From NCBI GenBank assembly GCA_023896275.1, contig MLDA01000026.1, positions 1-43,951 on the forward strand: 43,951 nt of DNA, read 5' to 3'. The notes beneath the pieces were generated by a model. It was not told the origin of the DNA. It made no database searches and worked only from the letters and a program-made list of their open reading frames with translations. Both the position numbers and the translations under genes were made by a program. This document shows positions 1 through 37,170 of the stretch, one piece after another; the stretch's first letter is position 1, and each line of letters opens with the position of its first letter. The stretch comes from Kocuria rosea subsp. polaris. GTDB taxonomy: Bacteria; Actinomycetota; Actinomycetes; Actinomycetales; Micrococcaceae.

Positions 1-158
1 GGGCAGTCGCGGGGTGGCGGCGGGGGCGGGCGATGCGGTGGTGGCCATGTCCACCATGGTTCGCCGGCCGCGCGCCGTTTCCAAGGCTTATGCGGCGATT
101 TCAGGGCGAACCCCGGCCAGAACCGGGCCCTCCCCGAGCCGGGCCCCGGGGTCCTCCC
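1..158. other. Left edge: short non-coding stretch, possible start of a minus-strand gene
   Basis: No complete gene is visible. On the minus strand an ATG at 57-55 (and another in frame at 48-46) opens a frame rich in Ala, Pro and Thr that runs off the left edge after 19 codons. It could be the N-terminus of a gene continuing outside the window, but there is no clear ribosome binding site, so this is only a possibility. The rest is very GC-rich and contains short self-complementary GGGCCC runs just downstream of the SGNH hydrolase gene, which might act as a weak terminator. Confidence 0.2.
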
Positions 159-938
159 CTACTCCGGGTGGACCTGCACGTAGTCGGGGTACTTCGGGTC
201 CATCTGGTCGCCGGAGCTTTTGCCGGTCAGGCGCCGTTGCACCCACGGCAGCAGGTGCGTCTTGGCCCACTGGGCGTTCTGCTTGATCTCCTCGACCCGG
301 CCGCGGGCGGCCGACGTGTGCAGTTCGGGGACCTCGATCGTGTGCTCGAGCCGCAGCAGCTCGAGGATCCGCGAGGCCATGAGGCAGTGGCCGGAGGTGT
401 TCATGTGCAGCCGGTCCTCGTCCCAGTAGCCGATGTTCTGGAACTCGCGCCAGCGCCAGTAGTCGGCGATCACGATCCCGCGCCGGTCAGCGATCTCGCG
501 CAGCCGCTCGTTGAACAGCGCCACGCGCCCCAGGGTGGCGCTGAAGATCGGAGACGCGGACACGTCGAACCCGGTGAAGACGACGACGTCGGCTCCGGTC
601 GCCTTGAGTTCGCCCAGCGCGTCGTCGAGCTGAGCGATGATGGCCTCGACGTCGACGCGCGGGCGCAGGATGTCGTTGCCGCCGGCGGAGACGGTCACGA
701 GCGTCGGCTTCAGCGCGATGGCCTGCGGCACCTGCTCGGCGACGATCTGGGGCAGCTTCCGCCCGCGGATGGCCAGGTTGGCGTAGCCCCAGGCCGGGTC
801 GGCGGTGATCAGCTGCTCGGCGACGCGGTCGGCCCAGCCCCGCACCCCGTTGGGCCGGTCGGGCGCGGGGTCCCCGACGCCCTCGCTGAAGGAATCTCCA
901 ATGGCAACGTATCGCTTCTCGAAATCCACGTCCTTCAC
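159..938 (-). CDS. SGNH/GDSL-type hydrolase (esterase/lipase family)
   Basis: This 259-residue protein has the SGNH hydrolase blocks in order: GDSFSEG at residues 14-20 (nucleophile Ser16), a block-II glycine near 59, GGND at 86-89 and D-R-L-H at 175-178 (Asp/His of the catalytic set). There is no signal peptide or membrane segment, so it is expected in the cytoplasm. Family members are esterases or lipases acting on acyl esters; the substrate cannot be read from sequence. The GTG at 938-936 is chosen because the SGNH fold begins almost immediately after it (residue 10 on). The longer open frame upstream lies inside the neighbouring hydrolase gene in another frame. It follows the serine hydrolase gene on the same strand with a 59 bp gap, so co-transcription is possible. 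Confidence 0.9.
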   Translation of the reverse strand: MKDVDFEKRYVAIGDSFSEGVGDPAPDRPNGVRGWADRVAEQLITADPAWGYANLAIRGRKLPQIVAEQVPQAIALKPTLVTVSAGGNDILRPRVDVEAIIAQLDDALGELKATGADVVVFTGFDVSASPIFSATLGRVALFNERLREIADRRGIVIADYWRWREFQNIGYWDEDRLHMNTSGHCLMASRILELLRLEHTIEVPELHTSAARGRVEEIKQNAQWAKTHLLPWVQRRLTGKSSGDQMDPKYPDYVQVHPE

Positions 939-997
939 GATAGACCACCGCGCACCGGCCCCGCGCCATTGCGGCACGCGCGGCCGCAATCGGGACT

Positions 998-2197
998 CTA
1001 CGCGACGAGCCCCTGCAGCACGGCCTGGCGCACGCTGAGGCTCAACCGGCCGTTGCGCGCGAGCGTGCCCATCTCCTCGGCGCGCGCCGGGACGTAGCCG
1101 AACGCGATCCCGTAGGCGGGATCCGCGTACCCAAACGCCCCGTTCGCACCCTCGTGGCCGAAGACCCGCCAGGACCCGAACTCCTTCTCCGGGGTCGGCT
1201 TCATGAACACCACGCCGAACGCCTTGAGCGCGCCATCGGCCCGGTCGAGGCCGAAGACCTGGTCCTCGGCCATGATCGTCTGGGTGTGCTCCGTCAGCAG
1301 GGGCGCGCTGCGCGTGCCGTCCTCGAGCACGACGCCGGTGCTCGCCGCCGCGTAGAGCCTCGCCAGCCCGCGGGCGTTGGCGACGCCGCCGGCCGAGGTC
1401 ATGCCGGCCGCCCGGATCTCGCGGCTGTTCGGCAGGTCGAGCAGATCGCCGGGCTCCCCGTCTTCCCGCGTGAAGCCGCCGGTCGAATTGAACGCGGTCC
1501 CGAGGTAGCCGTACGGGTCGATGAAGGGCAAGGGCGCGGCCGCGGGCTTGAGCACGTCCCGGTAGCGGGGCTCCTCGGACTCCGGCAGCCCCAGGTAGAA
1601 GTCGATGCCGTGCGGGGCGCGGACACGCTCCTCGTACACCTCCTGCAGGGTCCGACCGGTGATGCGGCGGACGAGCTCCTCCATGAGGATGCCGATGCTC
1701 AACCCGTGGTACGAGAACGCGATGCCCGGGCGCCAGTTGGGGGGCTCCGCGGCCAGCCGGGCCGCGGCGAGGGCGGAGTTGTTGTACTCCTCCGCGGTGA
1801 AGCCGCCGGCGACGCCGAGGGAGCCCGCCTGGTGGCTCAGGGCTTGGCGGACGGTTGTGGCCTCTTTGCCGGCCTGCCCGTACTCGGGCCAGTAGGCCGC
1901 GACGGGCGCGTCGAGATCCAGCAGACCGTCCTGGACGAGCAGCGCCATGACGATCGCGCCGGCGCCCTTGCTGCACGAGAAGACGCCGGTCAGCGCCTCG
2001 GCCCCGAACGCCGGGGCGTCGGCGCCCGCTTCGCCGTCCGCACCGGCCTGCGGCGCCCGGTCGGGCCCGACGGCGAGATCGAGCACGAGCTCACCCTCGT
2101 AGTACACGGCCAGCTGCCCGGCGTAGTCCGGGTCCTCCTGGCCGAAGCGTTCGAAGAGCTCAGCGACGGGCGTGAAGCGCGGGTCGGTCTCGGTCAC
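998..2197 (-). CDS. Serine hydrolase, beta-lactamase/class C (EstB-like) family
   Basis: The 399-residue protein belongs to the beta-lactamase-fold serine hydrolases (Pfam Beta-lactamase). The nucleophile motif S-C-S-K lies at residues 74-77, a tyrosine motif S-Y-H-G near 163, and a late H-E-G-A-N-G near residue 360 stands where class C enzymes have KTG. That substitution is usual in EstB-type esterases and D-aminopeptidase-like members rather than in true beta-lactamases. No secretion signal is visible, arguing for a cytoplasmic esterase or amidase. The GTG at 2197 has a strong ribosome binding site (GGAAGG, 6-7 nt upstream). It sits between the RNase H fusion gene (50 bp upstream) and the SGNH hydrolase gene, all on the minus strand and possibly one transcript. 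Substrate unknown. Confidence 0.9.
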   Translation of the reverse strand: MTETDPRFTPVAELFERFGQEDPDYAGQLAVYYEGELVLDLAVGPDRAPQAGADGEAGADAPAFGAEALTGVFSCSKGAGAIVMALLVQDGLLDLDAPVAAYWPEYGQAGKEATTVRQALSHQAGSLGVAGGFTAEEYNNSALAAARLAAEPPNWRPGIAFSYHGLSIGILMEELVRRITGRTLQEVYEERVRAPHGIDFYLGLPESEEPRYRDVLKPAAAPLPFIDPYGYLGTAFNSTGGFTREDGEPGDLLDLPNSREIRAAGMTSAGGVANARGLARLYAAASTGVVLEDGTRSAPLLTEHTQTIMAEDQVFGLDRADGALKAFGVVFMKPTPEKEFGSWRVFGHEGANGAFGYADPAYGIAFGYVPARAEEMGTLARNGRLSLSVRQAVLQGLVA

Positions 2198-2247
2198 GGG
2201 TTTCCTTCCGATGCGTGGTCTGCGAGCGGTGCGGGGCGGCGGGCGGC

Positions 2248-3189
2248 CTAACGCTCGGGGGTGGACTGGCGGAAGCGCAGGCGCCACCGCCCGTCCGCCT
2301 GCACCCAGAGCGAGGCGACGATGGTGGCGTACCCGGCGCCAGAGAGCCGGTAGGTGAGCATCACCGTGTCGGCGACCGGCGAGGCGTCGAGCAGCTCGAA
2401 CGTACCCGCGGGGGCTGCGGCGGACTCCTCGAGGACGGCGATCGCGGTGTCGCGGTCGTGCAGGTTCCCGCGGGAGCCGATCTGCCGGAAGTCGGCGTGC
2501 AGCAGATAGGAGACGGCCGAGGCGTCGGCGCGGACCTCCGGCTCGAGCAGTTCGCGCTCGAGGGTGACGACGGCGTCCAGCGCGGCGTTGCCCGTCCCGG
2601 ACTCCTGGACGTCCTCGAGCGAGGAGAACAAGTCGGGTTCCGCTTCTTCCGCCGCAGCGGGGGGCGACGGCGGCGCGGCCGGCGGGGCCGCCGTCGTCGT
2701 GCTGCGCGGGGCGGCCGGGGCTCCTCCGGCGAGGCCGGGTCCGGCCTCGGGGGCGACGCCGCGTTGGTGGGCGGTGGCGGCAGCGCGGGCCCGAACGTCG
2801 GCGGCTTCGTTCAGGTCGTGGCCGGCGTGGCCCTTGACCCACTCGAACTCGTACGTGCGGCCGGCGAGCGCGGCGTCGATCTGCTTGAGCAGCTCGACGT
2901 TGAGGACCGGCTTGCCGTCCTTCTTCTTCCAGCCCTTCTTCTTCCAGCCGGGCATCCACTTGGTGACGGAATTGATGACGTACTGCGAGTCGCAGAGGAT
3001 GTGCAGCGGCTCGTCGGCGCGGTGTGCGGTGCACTGGAGCAGGTCCAGGACGGCCATGAGCTCACCCATGTTGTTGGTGCCGTGGTCCCATCCTCCGGCG
3101 CGCCAGTTCGCGTCGTCGATGTACCAGGCCCATCCGGCTGGGCCGGGGTTGCCGAGCGCGGATCCATCTGCTGCAGCGATGATCGTCAT
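2248..3189 (-). CDS. Ribonuclease HI fused to a C-terminal NTF2-like (SnoaL/DUF4440-type) domain
   Basis: Residues 1-137 are an RNase HI domain that cleaves the RNA strand of RNA:DNA hybrids. All four metal-binding acidic residues are in place: Asp8 (ADGSALGNPGPAG), Glu43 (NNMGEL), Asp67 (CDSQYV) and Asp131 (NEAADVRA). The conserved H-A-G-H-D-L-N-E segment is present, as is a basic protrusion with two W-K-K-K motifs around 82-90. An Ala/Pro/Thr-rich linker of about 50 residues follows, then a ~120-residue domain (VTLERELLEPEV...FRQIGSRGNLHDRDTA...) that looks like the NTF2/DUF4440 fold and ends in WVQADGRWRLRFRQ. The ATG at 3189 fits the usual RNase HI N-terminus and has an AGGA site upstream; longer readings have no support. 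The role of the second domain is unknown. It may bind a small ligand or mediate dimerisation (inference). Confidence 0.9.
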   Translation of the reverse strand: MTIIAAADGSALGNPGPAGWAWYIDDANWRAGGWDHGTNNMGELMAVLDLLQCTAHRADEPLHILCDSQYVINSVTKWMPGWKKKGWKKKDGKPVLNVELLKQIDAALAGRTYEFEWVKGHAGHDLNEAADVRARAAATAHQRGVAPEAGPGLAGGAPAAPRSTTTAAPPAAPPSPPAAAEEAEPDLFSSLEDVQESGTGNAALDAVVTLERELLEPEVRADASAVSYLLHADFRQIGSRGNLHDRDTAIAVLEESAAAPAGTFELLDASPVADTVMLTYRLSGAGYATIVASLWVQADGRWRLRFRQSTPER

Positions 3190-3325: not shown

Positions 3326-3401
3326 GTGTGCAACATAGATGACATCAATGACGTGCATCATTGGACGCATCACTTGAACCTTCATGGAGGAACCTCACAC
3401 A

Positions 3402-4940
3402 ATGAGCGAAGTCTTATCCGCAATCAACGACGTCATCTGGAGTGACTGGCTGGTCTATCTGTGCCTCGCCAGCGGCGTCTACTTCTCCGTCCGCTCCCGC
3501 TTCCTGCAGGTGCGGCACATCAAGGGCATGGTCCAGCAGCTGGTGCGCGGCGAGCGTTCGCCGTCCGGCGTCTCCTCCTTCCAGGCCCTCGCCATGTCCC
3601 TGTCCGGCCGCGTCGGCACCGGCAACATCGCCGGCGTCGCCACCGCCATCGCCTTCGGCGGCCCCGGCGCGCTGTTCTGGATGTGGATGGTCGCCTTCCT
3701 CGGCGCCTCCACGTCCTTCATCGAGTCGACGCTCGGCCAGATCTACAAGACCCGCGACCCGCTGACCGGCGAGTACCGCGGCGGCCCGGCTTATTACCTC
3801 TCCCGCGCGCTCGCCCACACCAGGGGCGCCCCGTTCTTCAAGGTCTACGGCTACATCTTCGCCGCCGTGACCGTGCTCGCGTGCGGCGTGCTCCTGCCGG
3901 GCGTGCAGGCCAACTCGATGGCCACCGCGATTGACGGCGCCTGGGCCCTGCCTTCGTGGACGGTCGCCGTCGGCGCCGTCATCGTCCTGGCGTTCGTGAT
4001 CATCGGCGGCGTCAAGCGCATCGCCAACTTCGCCGCCTTCGTCGTGCCGTTCATGGCCGTGGCCTACATCATCCTGGCCCTGATCGTCGTGTTCGCGAAC
4101 GCCGCCGCCCTGCCGGAGATGTTCTCGATGGTCTTCCGCGCGGCATTCGGCATGGACGCCGCCTTCGGCGCCGTCGTCGGCCTCGCCGTCATGTGGGGCG
4201 TCAAGCGCGGGGTCTACTCGAACGAGGCCGGCCAGGGCACGGGCCCGCACGCCGCTGCCGCCGCCGAGGTCTCGCACCCGGCCAAGCAGGGCCTCGTGCA
4301 GTCCTTCGCCGTCTACATCGACACCCTGTTCGTCTGCTCGGCCACGGGCTTCCTGATCCTCTCCACGGGCGCCTACCGCGTGCACGAAGGTGGAAGTTCC
4401 GACGGCTCGGTGCTCGTCGAGGGCGGGCTGCTCTCGACGACCGCGGTGGTCGGACCGCAGTTCGTGCAGGCCGGCTTCGACAGCGTCTTCGCCGGCTTCG
4501 GCGCCTCGTTCATCGCGGTCACGCTGATGTTCTTCTGCCTGACGACGATCATCGCCTACTACTACATGGCCGAGACCAACCTGCGCTTCCTCGTGGGCAC
4601 CGCGTCGAGGACGCTCATCCCGGGCATCAAGGCCAGCGTCGGCCGCGTGACCACGATGGCCCTGCAGGTCGCGATCCTCATCGCCGTCGCGTACGGCTGT
4701 GTGAACACCGCGGACAACGCCTGGGCCATGGGCGACATCGGCGTGGGCCTCATGGCCTGGCTGAACATCATCGGCATCTTGATCCTGCAGCAGCCGGCGT
4801 TCAAGGCGCTCAAGGACTTCGAGGCGCAGAAGAAGCTGGGACTGGACCCCGTCTTCGACCCGAAGGTCCTGAACATCGTCGGTGCCACGTTCTGGGAGAC
4901 CTACAAGTCGGACCGAGAGAAGGAAAAGGCCAAACTGTAG
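3402..4940 (+). CDS. AGCS-family sodium:alanine/glycine symporter
   Basis: This 512-residue integral membrane protein belongs to the alanine or glycine:cation symporter family, which imports alanine, glycine or related amino acids with Na+. Family hallmarks seen are FQALAMSLSGRVGTGNIAGV, the GGPGALFWMWMVAFLGA segment followed by F-I-E-S-T-L-G-Q, and SNEAGQGTGPHAAAAAE in mid-protein. About 10-11 hydrophobic segments span the length, and size matches the family. An upstream ATG at 3384 overlaps the GGAGG Shine-Dalgarno sequence (3386-3390), so the ATG at 3402 is preferred. It is transcribed alone: divergent from the RNase H gene and ending at a strong shared terminator. Substrate (alanine versus glycine or glutamine) is not decided by sequence. 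Confidence 0.92.
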   Translation: MSEVLSAINDVIWSDWLVYLCLASGVYFSVRSRFLQVRHIKGMVQQLVRGERSPSGVSSFQALAMSLSGRVGTGNIAGVATAIAFGGPGALFWMWMVAFLGASTSFIESTLGQIYKTRDPLTGEYRGGPAYYLSRALAHTRGAPFFKVYGYIFAAVTVLACGVLLPGVQANSMATAIDGAWALPSWTVAVGAVIVLAFVIIGGVKRIANFAAFVVPFMAVAYIILALIVVFANAAALPEMFSMVFRAAFGMDAAFGAVVGLAVMWGVKRGVYSNEAGQGTGPHAAAAAEVSHPAKQGLVQSFAVYIDTLFVCSATGFLILSTGAYRVHEGGSSDGSVLVEGGLLSTTAVVGPQFVQAGFDSVFAGFGASFIAVTLMFFCLTTIIAYYYMAETNLRFLVGTASRTLIPGIKASVGRVTTMALQVAILIAVAYGCVNTADNAWAMGDIGVGLMAWLNIIGILILQQPAFKALKDFEAQKKLGLDPVFDPKVLNIVGATFWETYKSDREKEKAKL

Positions 4941-4999
4941 TCCCCCGCACCACGTGCGTCCCGCTCATCACGGGGCGCGCGGCATCACTCGCACAGACG

Positions 5000-34060: not shown

Positions 34061-35326
34061 ATGCCTGCCCACACAGAGAATTCCGCCGCGAGCTTCCCCC
34101 ACGGCGTCACCGCACCCGCCTACGAGGTGTGGGGCGACGTCAACGTGGACCCCGCGGGCATCTTCGACGACGTCCCCGACGCGGACCGCGCCTACTGGGA
34201 CCGGGCCCGCGCCTTCGGCCGCGACGAAGTCGCTCCGGTCATCGCCGACTATTGGAACCGCGCTGACTATCCGCTGCACCTGGGGCGTCGGCTGGGCGAA
34301 CTCGACCTGCTGCGCGACGGCGTCGAGATCGAGGGCAGCGAACCCATGAGCACGCTCGCCGCCGGGTTGGTCAACATGGAGCTCTCCCGGGCCGACGGCT
34401 CGGTGGGCACGATCTGCGGCGTGCAGGCCGGCCTGGCGCTGCGCTCGATCGCCCTCTGCGGGACGCCGGAGCAGATCGAGACATGGGTCCCGAAACTCTC
34501 TCGCGCCGAGGTCTGGGGCGCGTTCGCGCTCACCGAGCCCACGCACGGTTCGGATTCCGTCTCCCTGGAGACGAAGGCAACCCCGGTCGAAGGCGGCTAC
34601 CTGCTCAGCGGCGAGAAGAAGTGGATCGGAAACGCCTCCCTGGGTGACACCGAGGAGGGTGGCATCACCGTCGTCTGGGCGCGCGTCGACGGCGGCGAGC
34701 ACCACGGCAACGTGCGCGGCTTCATCGTGCAGCAGGAGTGGGAGGGCTACCAGGCGACAACGATCGAGAACAAGCTCAGCCTGCGCGCCATCTGGCAGGC
34801 CCACATCCGGATGGACAACGTGTTCGTCCCGAACAGCCACGTGCTCGAGCGCTCCTCCACCTTCAAGGACACCGCCCGGGTTCTCTTCGCCACTCGGCTC
34901 GGCGTCGCCTGGTCGGCTGTCGGGCACGCGACCGCCTGCTACGAGACCGCAGTCCAGTACGCGGGCCAGCGCACGCAGTTCGGGCGACCGCTTGCGGCGA
35001 GCCAGATCGTTCAGGAGCGTCTGACCCGCATGCAGTCCGAACTGGTCTCGATGCAGCTCATGGCCCGCCAGATGACGACCCGCGCCGAGGCCGGAACGCT
35101 CACCCCCGAGCAGGCATCCCTGGCCAAGTACACGTGCACCCGGGCCGCCCGCCGGGTCGCGGCCGAGGCGCGCGATCTGCTCGGCGGCAACGGCATCCTG
35201 CTCGAGCACCGCGTCGCCCGCCACTTCGCAGATGTCGAGGCCATCCACACCTACGAAGGCACCGAGACCGTCCAGGCCCTCATCATCGGGCGCTCGATCA
35301 CGGGGCACTCGGCCTTCGCCTCGTAG
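34061..35326 (+). CDS. Acyl-CoA dehydrogenase, glutaryl-CoA-dehydrogenase-like
   Basis: The 421-residue flavoprotein is an acyl-CoA dehydrogenase closest in pattern to glutaryl-CoA dehydrogenase: W-G-A-F-A-L-T-E-P-T-H-G-S-D (flavin site), G-E-K-K-W-I-G-N-A-S, R-T-Q-F-G-R-P-L-A, and the C-terminal E-A-I-H-T-Y-E-G-T-E-T-V-Q-A-L-I-I-G-R-S-I-T-G, containing the catalytic-base Glu of Y-E-G-T. Glutaryl-CoA dehydrogenase makes crotonyl-CoA from glutaryl-CoA in lysine/tryptophan catabolism. The specific arginine set is not verifiable here, so related acyl-CoA substrates remain possible. ATG 34061 is preferred (GGGAG 7 nt upstream); the GTG at 34019 lies in the -10 box. Confidence 0.88.
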   Translation: MPAHTENSAASFPHGVTAPAYEVWGDVNVDPAGIFDDVPDADRAYWDRARAFGRDEVAPVIADYWNRADYPLHLGRRLGELDLLRDGVEIEGSEPMSTLAAGLVNMELSRADGSVGTICGVQAGLALRSIALCGTPEQIETWVPKLSRAEVWGAFALTEPTHGSDSVSLETKATPVEGGYLLSGEKKWIGNASLGDTEEGGITVVWARVDGGEHHGNVRGFIVQQEWEGYQATTIENKLSLRAIWQAHIRMDNVFVPNSHVLERSSTFKDTARVLFATRLGVAWSAVGHATACYETAVQYAGQRTQFGRPLAASQIVQERLTRMQSELVSMQLMARQMTTRAEAGTLTPEQASLAKYTCTRAARRVAAEARDLLGGNGILLEHRVARHFADVEAIHTYEGTETVQALIIGRSITGHSAFAS

Positions 35327-35383
35327 GCGCGGATTCACACCCGCCCCATGGGCGCTACGCAGACTGTTTTCAGGTTGCAGTCT

Positions 35384-35477
35384 TAGTGTTTTAACCACCT
35401 CTTGAAGGTGCGAGTGATGAGAGCACCGGTCGGGCCACGGCTATCCCCCTAGCCGCCGACCGGTGCTCATCTCGTTA
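35384..35477 (+). ncRNA. Two-hairpin RNA-like element, copy 1
   Basis: A -10-like TAGTGT (35384-35389) is followed about 7 nt later by hairpin 1 (CACCT-CTTGA-AGGTG, 35396-35410), the linker CGAGTGATGA, then hairpin 2: a perfect 13 bp outer stem (35421-35433 with 35456-35468) holding an inner stem GGCTA/TAGCC with loop TCCCCC. It ends ATCTCGTTAATG, a weak T-run. No reading frame runs through it. The same plan occurs at 35559 and 35957 with compensatory base changes, so it is probably a small RNA of about 80 nt with its own promoter and a terminator hairpin. I do not recognise it as a named family; the C-rich loop recalls actinobacterial 6C RNAs, but those have two C-rich loops. Confidence 0.7.
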
Positions 35478-35558
35478 ATGACCCCGCCGCCGCAACCCTC
35501 CCAGCGGATTCCTATGCGGGCCGAAGCGCCGCCACAGTCCCGGCACAGCTTGGCCCCT

Positions 35559-35654
35559 TAGGTTTGTAAGTACCTCATGGAGGTGCGAGTGATGAGAGCA
35601 CCGGTCGGAGCAACGGCTTTCCCCCAAGCCGCCGACCGGTGCTCGTCGTTTAAC
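35559..35654 (+). ncRNA. Two-hairpin RNA-like element, copy 2
   Basis: TAGGTT (35559-35564) precedes hairpin 1 (ACCTC-ATG-GAGGT, 35572-35584), linker GCGAGTGATGA, and hairpin 2, whose 13 bp outer arms (35596-35608 and 35632-35644) are identical to copy 1. The inner stem is GGCTT/AAGCC, a compensated change from GGCTA/TAGCC, with the same TCCCCC loop. GTCGTTTAAC follows. It lies 75 bp upstream of the SFPASDPP small-protein gene. It may be a separate small RNA or, if read-through occurs, a leader controlling that gene. Confidence 0.7.
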
Positions 35655-35728
35655 ACCTCCACAGGGTGCTAGCCAAAGCGACCCTGAAGAAGCAGACTAG
35701 GGGTACCCAATCCGAGAGGAGCAGAGTC

Positions 35729-35884
35729 ATGACGGCCAACGAATCCGGCAATGGCACGAGCGCCGAGTCACCCCAGGGGACCGACGAGGAGATTGCCAAG
35801 AAGAAGCATGATCATGAAGACGAGATGGTCGAAGAATGGGAAGACGAATCCTTTCCGGCCTCGGATCCTCCCTCGAATTACTAG
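35729..35884 (+). CDS. Small acidic protein with C-terminal SFPASDPP motif
   Basis: The 51-residue product is very acidic and hydrophilic: E-E-I-A-K-K-K-H-D-H-E-D-E-M-V-E-E-W-E-D-E-S-F-P-A-S-D-P-P-S-N-Y. The ending E-S-F-P-A-S-D-P-P is a recurring signature of small uncharacterised proteins in many bacterial phyla; its function is unknown. No membrane segment, cysteine or signal peptide is present. The ATG at 35729 is chosen because AGGAG lies 7 nt upstream; a longer reading from an upstream ATG would include that site. It lies between RNA-like copies 2 and 3 and is followed immediately by interlocked inverted repeats. Confidence 0.82.
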   Translation: MTANESGNGTSAESPQGTDEEIAKKKHDHEDEMVEEWEDESFPASDPPSNY

Positions 35885-35886
35885 CA

Positions 35887-35951
35887 TTCACCTGAAGTTC
35901 GCTCGACCCCCAGTGGCCTCCTACCTTGCGTTCAGGTGAACTCAAGGTAGG
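35887..35951. repeat. Interleaved inverted repeats (pseudoknot-like or paired operator)
   Basis: TTCACCTGAA (35887-35896) is the exact complement of TTCAGGTGAA (35931-35940), and CCTACCTTG (35920-35928) of CAAGGTAGG (35943-35951). The order A-B-A'-B' cannot form two nested hairpins but suits an H-type pseudoknot, alternative hairpins, or protein binding to DNA. The A sites are also TTCA-NN-TGAA palindromes. It lies just upstream of the -10-like box of RNA copy 3. Confidence 0.6.
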
Positions 35952-35956
35952 GGCCC

Positions 35957-36057
35957 TAGGCTGAATTCACCTTCTCAAGGTGCGAGTGATCACGAAGCAC
36001 CGACCGCGGCGGTTTTATCGCCTCCTTGTCCGCAGCGGTCGGTGCTTCGATCTTTTA
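35957..36057 (+). ncRNA. Two-hairpin RNA-like element, copy 3 (diverged)
   Basis: TAGGCT (35957-35962) precedes hairpin 1 (CACCTT-CTC-AAGGTG, 35968-35982), the invariant GCGAGTGAT linker, and hairpin 2 with a perfect 14 bp outer stem, GAAGCACCGACCGC (35994-36007) with GCGGTCGGTGCTTC (36035-36048). The stem sequence differs from copies 1 and 2 (ACCGACC for ACCGGTC) yet stays fully paired. The inner region differs: GGCG/CGCC with loop GTTTTAT, then an unpaired CCTCCTTGTCC. TCTTTTAAC gives the best T-run of the three. It lies 76 bp upstream of the aldo/keto reductase gene. Confidence 0.7.
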
Positions 36058-36132
36058 ACACCCGTCGCACCTGAGCCGACCCGCACCCCTGCCGGATAGC
36101 ATGATGAATACGCGCGACACCCAGGAGGACAC

Positions 36133-37170
36133 GTGACCGAGCACCGCATCGACCGCACGCACGAAACGCATCGGCCCTACGTGGCAGCCGAGGACCGCTA
36201 CGACTCGATCGCCTACCGCTCCGTGGGTAGCTCGGGGTTGGTCCTCCCTCCGCTGAGCCTGGGACTGTGGTGGAACTTCGGGGACAATCGCCCGTTCGAC
36301 ACCCAGCGCCAGATCCTGCGGCACGCGTTCGACCGCGGCATCACCCACTTCGACCTGGCCAATAACTACGGTCCTCCCTACGGAAGCGCGGAGGAGAACT
36401 TCGGCCGCATGATGGCCAAAGACTTCGCCCCGTACCGCGACGAGCTCATCGTCTCGTCGAAGGCCGGCTACGATATGTGGCCGGGCCCTTACGGCAACGG
36501 GGGCTCCCGCAAGTACATCCTGTCCTCGGCCGAGGCCTCGCTCAAGCGGTTGGGCCTCGACTACGTCGACATCTTCTACTCGCACCGGCCCACTCCCGAC
36601 GTCCCGCTCGAGGAGACCGTCGGCGCCCTCGACACCCTCGTCCGCCAGGGCAAGGCACTCTACGTCGGCATCTCCTCCTACTCCCCCGAGCGCACGGCCG
36701 AGGCCGCTGAGATCGCCCGCTCGCTGGGCACACCTCTCGTCATCCACCAGCCCTCCTACTCCCTCCTGAACCGGTGGGTCGAGGACGGCCTGCTCGCCAC
36801 CCTCGAGCGGGAGGGCATGGGCTCGATCGCCTTCACCCCGCTGGCCCAGGGGCTCTTGACGAACAAGTACCTGGAGAACTCGGACGCCACCCCGTCGGGC
36901 GGACGCAGCTCGCTGTCCGGCCTGACCGCGGAGAATCTCGCCATCGTCCGGAACCTCAACCGCCACGCCGCAGAGCGCGGCCAGAGCCTCGCGCAGATGT
37001 CCATCGCGTGGCTCCTGCGCTCGGGCGGCGTGACCTCAGTGCTCATCGGCGCCTCCTCGACGGACCAGCTCGACGACAACCTCGGCGCGCTCATCAACAC
37101 GAGTTTCACCGAGTCCGAGCTCCTCCTGATCGACCGGATCACCGCGGGCGACCCCGGGTCCGAGGCCTGA
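36133..37170 (+). CDS. Aldo/keto reductase (YghZ / L-glyceraldehyde-3-phosphate reductase-like)
   Basis: The 345-residue protein is an aldo/keto reductase of the AKR14/Kv-beta-like group. The catalytic tetrad is visible: Asp74 and Tyr79 (F-D-L-A-N-N-Y-G), Lys110 (S-S-K-A-G-Y) and His151 (F-Y-S-H-R). The W-P-G-P-Y-G-N-G-G-S-R-K and Y-V-G-I-S-S-Y motifs are those of YghZ-like enzymes, which reduce L-glyceraldehyde 3-phosphate or methylglyoxal with NADPH. The GTG start at 36133 has AGGAGG about 5 nt upstream. The DUF5129 gene starts 7 bp later, so they are co-transcribed. Confidence 0.9.
   Translation: MTEHRIDRTHETHRPYVAAEDRYDSIAYRSVGSSGLVLPPLSLGLWWNFGDNRPFDTQRQILRHAFDRGITHFDLANNYGPPYGSAEENFGRMMAKDFAPYRDELIVSSKAGYDMWPGPYGNGGSRKYILSSAEASLKRLGLDYVDIFYSHRPTPDVPLEETVGALDTLVRQGKALYVGISSYSPERTAEAAEIARSLGTPLVIHQPSYSLLNRWVEDGLLATLEREGMGSIAFTPLAQGLLTNKYLENSDATPSGGRSSLSGLTAENLAIVRNLNRHAAERGQSLAQMSIAWLLRSGGVTSVLIGASSTDQLDDNLGALINTSFTESELLLIDRITAGDPGSEA

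Follow-up and report, generated by a model that had tools for sequence, protein, structure and literature searches.

We observed that a two-hairpin element occurs in three copies in the window (the whole 43,951-nucleotide stretch of DNA that was analysed), and that these copies belong to a family found across the Micrococcaceae. Comparative data agree with the view that the copies are small-RNA genes with a selected structure, and we think it somewhat probable that they are PhoP-family-controlled genes whose RNAs repress translation via C-rich loops resembling an anti-Shine-Dalgarno sequence. The existence of the three-copy element, described earlier from the letters of the window (hereafter the sequence-only reading), was confirmed: the copies lie where that reading had placed them, each behind a TANNNT box, and follow a common plan of -10 box, hairpin 1, GCGAGTGAT, long GC-rich hairpin and TTAA-type tail (Table 1). 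They start at 35396, 35571 and 35968 with a near-invariant 5' module, ACCUCAUnAAGGUGCGAGUGAU. When no mismatch was allowed, GGTGCGAGTGAT occurred three times in the window, always within these copies. The direct repeats upstream are imperfect at copies 1 and 3. The T-run had been called weak, and a strict scan of 35320-36130 indeed called no terminator there; neither did strict scanning of this region find a promoter of the TTGACA/TATAAT (sigma-70) type. The 51-aa ORF listed in Table 1 gave a product with no Pfam match at E 0.01. Two further model matches, at C33:17152 and C11:189706, bring the total for the 3.43 Mb genome of the window (G000) to five. Both have the 5' module as in the window, together with hairpins that lack a C-run loop.

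Table 1. Coordinates of the features of the three copies and of related sites in the window.
Feature	Position	Strand	Basis
ATCACTCGCAC, 11 nt exactly complementary to part of the 5' module	4984-4994	+	complement search
Copy 1, 11-bp-spaced direct repeat CAG-N8-CAGG, 5' of -10 box	35360-35374	+	family-logo register -47 and -36
Copy 1, -10 box TAGTGT	35384-35389	+	sequence; family-wide TANNNT position
Copy 1, 5' module: hairpin 1 (35396-35410) and single-stranded GCGAGTGAT (35410-35418)	35396-35418	+	sequence, fold
Copy 1, long hairpin, TCCCCC loop	35421-35468	+	fold, loop counts, covariation
Copy 1, weak terminal TTAA	35475-35478	+	sequence; no terminator called by strict scan
Copy 2, direct repeat CCACAG-N5-GCACAGC, PhoP-box-like	35532-35549	+	sequence, spacing statistics
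Copy 2, -10 box TAGGTT	35559-35564	+	sequence
Copy 2, 5' module: hairpin 1 (35571-35585) and GCGAGTGAT (35585-35593)	35571-35593	+	sequence, fold
Copy 2, long hairpin, TCCCCC loop	35596-35644	+	fold, loop counts, covariation
Copy 2, terminal TTTAAC	35649-35654	+	sequence
51-aa acidic-protein ORF, C-terminal end EEWEDESFPASDPPSNY, separate from the RNA	35729-35884	+	ORF; accompanies copy-3-type elements of other genera
Copy 3, imperfect direct repeat TTCAGGT-N4-TCAAGGT	35931-35948	+	sequence
Copy 3, -10 box TAGGCT	35957-35962	+	sequence
Copy 3, 5' module, CTTCTCAA variant: hairpin 1 (35968-35982) and GCGAGTGAT (35982-35990)	35968-35990	+	sequence, fold
Copy 3, long hairpin, anti-SD-like CGCCTCCTTGTC in loop	35994-36048	+	fold, loop survey
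Copy 3, terminal TTTTAAC	36053-36059	+	sequence

Building a covariance model and searching with it showed that the family far exceeds three copies. The model (R1) describes the -10 box and the 5' module and was made from 90 sequences. It matched 111 of 120 Micrococcaceae genomes, representing 31 of 32 genera; these counts are a lower bound because the filters were strict, and they are not independent because the sequences are related. Forty of the 111 genomes carried one match and 71 carried two to eight; among the nine Micrococcaceae genomes without a match, six belong to genus g6 and three to g3. In an order-wide search with R1, 13 of 198 genomes matched, every one from the Micrococcaceae, and a class-wide pattern search allowing one mismatch matched 2 of 394 genomes, both from the same family. 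Contigs of one genome per species were also scanned with the pattern, which yielded at least 118 stretches. Among the 118 listed, 115 came from entries named 'Micrococcaceae bacterium' or from genera that we take to be Micrococcaceae, and the remaining three were matches in MAGs labelled Acidobacteria (L060), Anaerolineae (L119) and Saprospiraceae (L162). The latter two lacked the architecture of the element. The Acidobacteria-labelled contig held two full elements, and is perhaps a mis-binned Micrococcaceae contig. From these searches the family appears to be confined to the Micrococcaceae. Viral contigs gave no match to the exact module pattern, and on this basis a viral origin of the element was rejected. 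On a contig titled Arthrobacter (L144), four module matches lie within 3 kb on the minus strand (positions 90-3039) and adjoin a TPP riboswitch at 2096-2203, a cluster that looks like a local amplification of the sRNA genes.

The structure of the element was assessed by folding and by comparison of homologues. Copies 1, 2 and 3 folded with z values of -5.7, -7.1 and -6.0 relative to dinucleotide shuffles, and 0 of 200 shuffles of each was as good; the folded hairpin 1 loops of the three copies read CUUGA, AUG and CUC. For 31 homologues of the GCACCG type, to which copies 1 and 2 belong, the whole structure paired in 97% of cells, compared to at most 43% when slid. The sequence-only reading had held that the stems change together. 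Within these 31 sequences the claim stood for hairpin 2, where 4 of 13 pairs had changed on both sides, and fell for hairpin 1, which showed zero compensatory changes; homologues with covariation thus exist for the second hairpin only. The inner hairpin 1 pair proposed earlier (-6 x -2) can form in just 28 of 184 copies, a non-redundant set for which exact GGTGCGAGTGA was required for entry. Throughout this set the hairpin 1 stem is kept as sequence, in the form ACCU-loop-AGGU with a variable loop length. The best-conserved part of the element is the 5' module rather than the long hairpin. Judged by these comparisons, the interpretation as small-RNA genes appears supported, with amendments on hairpin 1 and the 5' module.

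The two ends of the element behaved differently, with a constant 5' module and a 3' hairpin that varies freely from lineage to lineage among the 184 copies. GGTGCGAGTGAT was kept by every one of 143 model matches from 100 loci, which had been fetched by a pattern containing the same letters. Of the 184 copies, 128 had a CCCC run in the loop of a downstream hairpin, compared to 14 after shuffling, and 4 had GGGG, compared to 2; the survey spans 110 nt from the module start and the shuffling was limited to the part 3' of the module. In 107 of the 184 copies the CCCC loop began within +11 to +64. Among strict, perfect-stem hairpins followed by T, which form a control on a different scale from this survey, 3 of 17 in the element carried CCCC, and elsewhere in the loci 4 of 83 carried CCCC and 4 of 83 GGGG. 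By the fold used, 45 of the 184 copies, including the C33 and C11 copies of G000, had neither CCCC nor CCTCC in any loop, so the C-loop cannot account for the function by itself. Copies of the copy-3 type, found in Zhihengliuella, Paeniglutamicibacter, Glutamicibacter and further Micrococcaceae, carry CCTCCTT after G or A, a sequence that we take to be close to the 16S rRNA 3' end. In 9 of 22 loci of this type the 51-aa acidic protein is encoded upstream. Pairing of the C-rich loops with Shine-Dalgarno sequences had been put forward as a testable role; the loop C bias and the precedents of B11/6C and LhrC strengthen this suggestion.

The copies are preceded by promoter-like signals of their own. 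A TANNNT box begins between -24 and -20 in 182 of the 184 copies, and at -23 in 138. When aligned on the module, the family logo shows CA(G/A)(G/C) at -69, -58, -47 and -36; the most downstream of these begins 13 nt ahead of the usual -10 box. In 154 dissimilar upstream sequences, CA-CA spacings peaked at 11, 22 and 33 nt with 193, 156 and 108 pairs, compared to 9-48 pairs at directly neighbouring spacings, and the relative entropy was 10.4 bits compared to 0.55 +- 0.08 for rotated controls. CAG-N8-CAG direct repeats were present 5' of the -10 box in 110 of 184 copies and in 1 for the reversed-letter control. The longer form CACAG-N6-CACAG preceded just 5 of the 184 putative sRNAs exactly; with up to two mismatches it preceded 116, compared to 3 in shuffled and 7 in reversed sequences. 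The upstream 11-bp-spaced repeats are absent from the sequence-only reading.

Next, the 21 Trans_reg_C matches of G000 and a further genome, G003, were scanned for such repeats, and two regulators, A and B, carried them upstream in both genomes. Regulator A (G000:C22:161750-162424) is preceded by TCACAG-N5-GCACAGG and then TAGATT at an sRNA-like distance, while regulator B (G000:C6, around 63289-63513; loci L255 and L256) shows TCAGG-N6-CCCAG, or a sequence close to it, some 35 nt ahead of its start codon. The two proteins are 54% identical. M. tuberculosis PhoP is the best solved-structure relative of both, at 287 bits for B (PrrA next, 180) and 222 bits for A (PrrA, 182). CAG-N8-CAG was found upstream of 13 of 16 B genes in other genera (control 2), as well as of the B genes of G000 and G003, and upstream of 28 of 39 A loci (control 0). 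At the PhoP-orthologue genes (L256, L342-L357) it lies mostly about 60 nt before the match start, in sRNA-less genomes included. The PhoP orthologue, B, likely autoregulates and has further targets. CACAG-N6-CACAG with at most one mismatch preceded 24 of 29 A genes versus 0 of 19 'other' regulators, B among them, and the opposite strand of the same 29 upstream sequences gave 6 exact matches. A matrix of the sRNA repeats (background 99.99th percentile 9.1, maximum 17.9) scored 15.4 at regulator A in G000, second to 16.9 at L253, an AT-rich stretch that is not upstream of the regulator gene of that locus.

These data point to B as the more likely general activator, because A is missing from genomes with sRNAs, the repeats are kept there and B was detected in every genome searched. 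At E 1e-80, A was absent from 17 of 61 genomes, 15 of which had sRNA matches, and at Nesterenkonia-labelled loci (a group in which two genomes, G016 and G045, lack A) 22 of 34 sRNA upstreams were within two mismatches of CACAG-N6-CACAG. At E 1e-60, B was present in 16 of 16 genomes, nine of them sRNA-less. A may add to the action of B. The box preceded 28 of 34 A genes in genomes with model matches and 0 of 5 in genomes without (Fisher p 0.0008, genomes related), and three g3 genomes with model matches had no CACAG box before A; this association is given little weight because of the relatedness, the three exceptions and the presence of the B repeats in sRNA-less genomes. A had been considered as the PhoP counterpart and gave way in that role to B, which is nearer to PhoP and has the repeats too. 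The switch to B bears on the identity of the activator and leaves the reality of the family untouched. The DNA sites of M. tuberculosis PhoP are 7-bp motifs repeated directly with 4 bp between them, and direct repeats of such geometry are the binding pattern of OmpR/PhoB-family regulators (both from an excerpt of PMC4832192).

By analogy with B11/6C, LhrC, the csRNAs and Mcr7 under PhoP, we favor a regulon of sibling sRNAs. Each copy would be a stand-alone small-RNA gene of about 80-95 nt, specific to the Micrococcaceae. A PhoP-subfamily regulator (the orthologue B, the paralogue A, or both) would bind the 11-bp-spaced (T)C(A/C)CAG(G/C) repeats that lie immediately 5' of the -10 box, and would activate the sibling genes jointly. 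The RNA is predicted to have its 5' end at the ACCU of hairpin 1 or directly beside it, to expose the invariant GCGAGUGAU as a single strand and to end in a GC-rich hairpin with a C-rich loop, which would read UCCCCC in copies 1 and 2 and the anti-SD-like CCUCCUU in copy 3. Such a loop could pair with G-rich or Shine-Dalgarno sequences in mRNAs and thereby block translation. The sRNAs would be stable by structure, and their constant 5' module might serve as a common pairing seed or as a handle for a shared protein. As a more speculative extension, ACCUCAUnAAGGUGCGAGUGAU could be the docking handle for one dedicated Micrococcaceae RNA-binding partner, with the terminal C-loop exchanged per target; we raise this idea tentatively. 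We know of no Hfq-type chaperone established in actinobacteria. If the docking idea is right, this would be a modular sRNA regulon with a PhoP-family regulator and a chaperone of its own, and its constant 5' module would allow the partner to be fished out, which bears on how actinobacteria handle sRNAs. The regulon proposed here would be conserved across the Micrococcaceae (Arthrobacter, Glutamicibacter, Micrococcus, Nesterenkonia and others) and would come with proposed regulators and a testable pairing rule.

Other explanations were weighed against the translational repressor. The working part could be the 5' module itself, with hairpin 1 and GCGAGUGAU forming a site for an RNA-binding protein (a chaperone, a nuclease or a sequestered regulator) and the variable hairpins acting mainly as terminators. 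The constancy of the module beside the variation of everything 3' of it fits this idea, as does the retention of GGTGCGAGTGAT in every model match, with loci pre-selected by the same letters, and the 45 C-loop-less copies amount to barely more than the module and a terminator-like hairpin. It leaves the excess of C-run loops over shuffled sequences unexplained, however, and no candidate protein is known, and we regard it as a doubtful though serious alternative. We consider it unlikely that a regulator from outside the PhoP subfamily uses the repeats or that the sRNAs are constitutive. The repeat geometry is common to OmpR/PhoB-family regulators (PMC4832192, in excerpt), A is missing from some sRNA genomes, the three g3 genomes lack the box before A, and the matrix reached 16.9 at the L253 stretch of another regulator locus. 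Against this, CAG-N8-CAG occurs before both PhoP-subfamily regulators and 110 of the 184 sRNAs, with 0 to 2 in the reversed-letter controls, and the pstS upstreams of relatives, read by eye, carry GTTAACC/GTTCACC boxes instead. On the latter observation, phosphate control via a classical PHO box was also rejected.

A cis-acting leader or attenuator of the downstream gene has its best case in copy 3: of 22 loci of this type, 16 carry a same-strand aldo/keto reductase gene downstream, and three of the remaining six, with under 300 nt of sequence beyond the element, are too short to judge. The distance from element to reductase match ranges from 163 to 1839 nt, however. The next feature after copy 1 is copy 2, after copy 2 it is the 51-aa ORF, and after the C33 copy it is a gene on the opposite strand. 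A simple gene caller, used on 225 copies, near-duplicates included, could call the next downstream gene in 206 cases; it lay on the opposite strand in 120 of these and on the same strand in 86. Because of these 120 cases the family is not in general a cis leader, and we consider such a role improbable. In 41 cases an opposite-strand gene that by eye reads as proC lies upstream, and a gene that reads as an isomerase or ppx lies downstream in other clusters of the proC-type locus. Least probable of all is a short leader-peptide gene with a GTG or ATG start after AAGGTG. AAGGTGCGAGTGATG does resemble a ribosome binding site and start, but the GTG frame is no more open than in shuffles (median 29.5 versus 36.4 codons), ATG directly follows the GTG codon in 117 of 184 copies, and in 47 of 184 the loop of hairpin 1 has an ATG in its usual position.

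Pairing partners of the 5' module were sought in three Zhihengliuella genomes, which together held 37 exact matches to ATCACTCGCA. Among the 30 matches listed, the single non-element site conserved across the three genomes is located 3' of a sodium:alanine symporter gene. In the window this site is ATCACTCGCAC (Table 1), 3' of the symporter gene (3384-4940) and directly before a terminator-like hairpin, and a 10-mer of it is kept in the two other Zhihengliuella genomes. It is possibly a target or a sponge, or is due to chance; three close relatives do not suffice to claim selection on the site. In the start regions of the three genomes, the search for the exact complement of the module gave no convincing mRNA target.

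To place the proposed sRNAs among known systems, we compared them to named RNA families. The sequence-only reading had allowed for a match to one of these. The window gave 0 matches at gathering to the 4227 families of Rfam 15, and a search of 35320-36140 at E up to 10 gave 17 matches, all below gathering and judged to be chance, with 6C absent. On 18 further copy-bearing loci (143873 bases), Rfam detected just two TPP riboswitches, outside the copies. The claimed difference from 6C held: RF01066 did not match the window copies, and 6C RNA has two adjacent C-loop hairpins, whereas the window copies have such a loop in the second hairpin alone, with a C-run in copies 1 and 2 and CCTCC in copy 3. 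Identification of the copies as 6C was rejected, RF01066 being a separate RNA that stays below gathering at the window copies. At E 0.001 it was found in 4 of 41 Micrococcaceae genomes, 1 of them above the cut-off, and G000 had none. 6C-like RNAs with CCCCC-loop hairpins occur in genera g6 and g11, at L213 and L219 (G009), L212 and L218 (G014), L214 and L220 (G043) and L215 (G039). The GCGAGUGAU module was not found at the 6C hairpins in L218, L219 and L220, and tblastn of 16 neighbour proteins against five 6C-like loci gave no match, which is uninformative either way.

The family resembles 6C/B11 in being an actinobacterial sRNA with C-rich hairpin loops, and the two C-rich loops of B11 repress an mRNA that carries a G tract (PMC10470900, in excerpt). 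LhrC of Listeria and the csRNAs of streptococci are likewise multicopy siblings under a two-component system, a control that is proposed for the Micrococcaceae family; the CU-rich sites of LhrC block lapB translation under LisRK control (PMC4132741, in excerpt). Several copies with C-rich loops are the hallmark of these RNAs, and at least two matches were found in 71 of the 111 genomes and one in 40. By repeat counts, similar repeats stand upstream of the sRNAs and of the two regulator genes. LhrC and the csRNAs differ in coming from another phylum, with sequence compared via Rfam. Two features are the Micrococcaceae family's own, its constant 5' module and a C-loop that caps the terminal hairpin. 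Mcr7 of M. tuberculosis is similar as an sRNA under PhoP control and has been proposed to occlude the tatC ribosome binding site; compared by its description, it differs in its length of about 350 nt and its restriction to the M. tuberculosis complex (PMC4038636, in excerpt). The open-access literature on sRNAs of Arthrobacter, the Micrococcaceae and Micrococcus luteus, on 6C, LhrC, Mcr7 and multicopy anti-SD sRNAs and on PhoP repeats, as far as its available portions extend, contains no description of the Micrococcaceae family. In conclusion, these comparisons suggest a new sRNA family that would be of a known functional kind and has an anatomy of its own.
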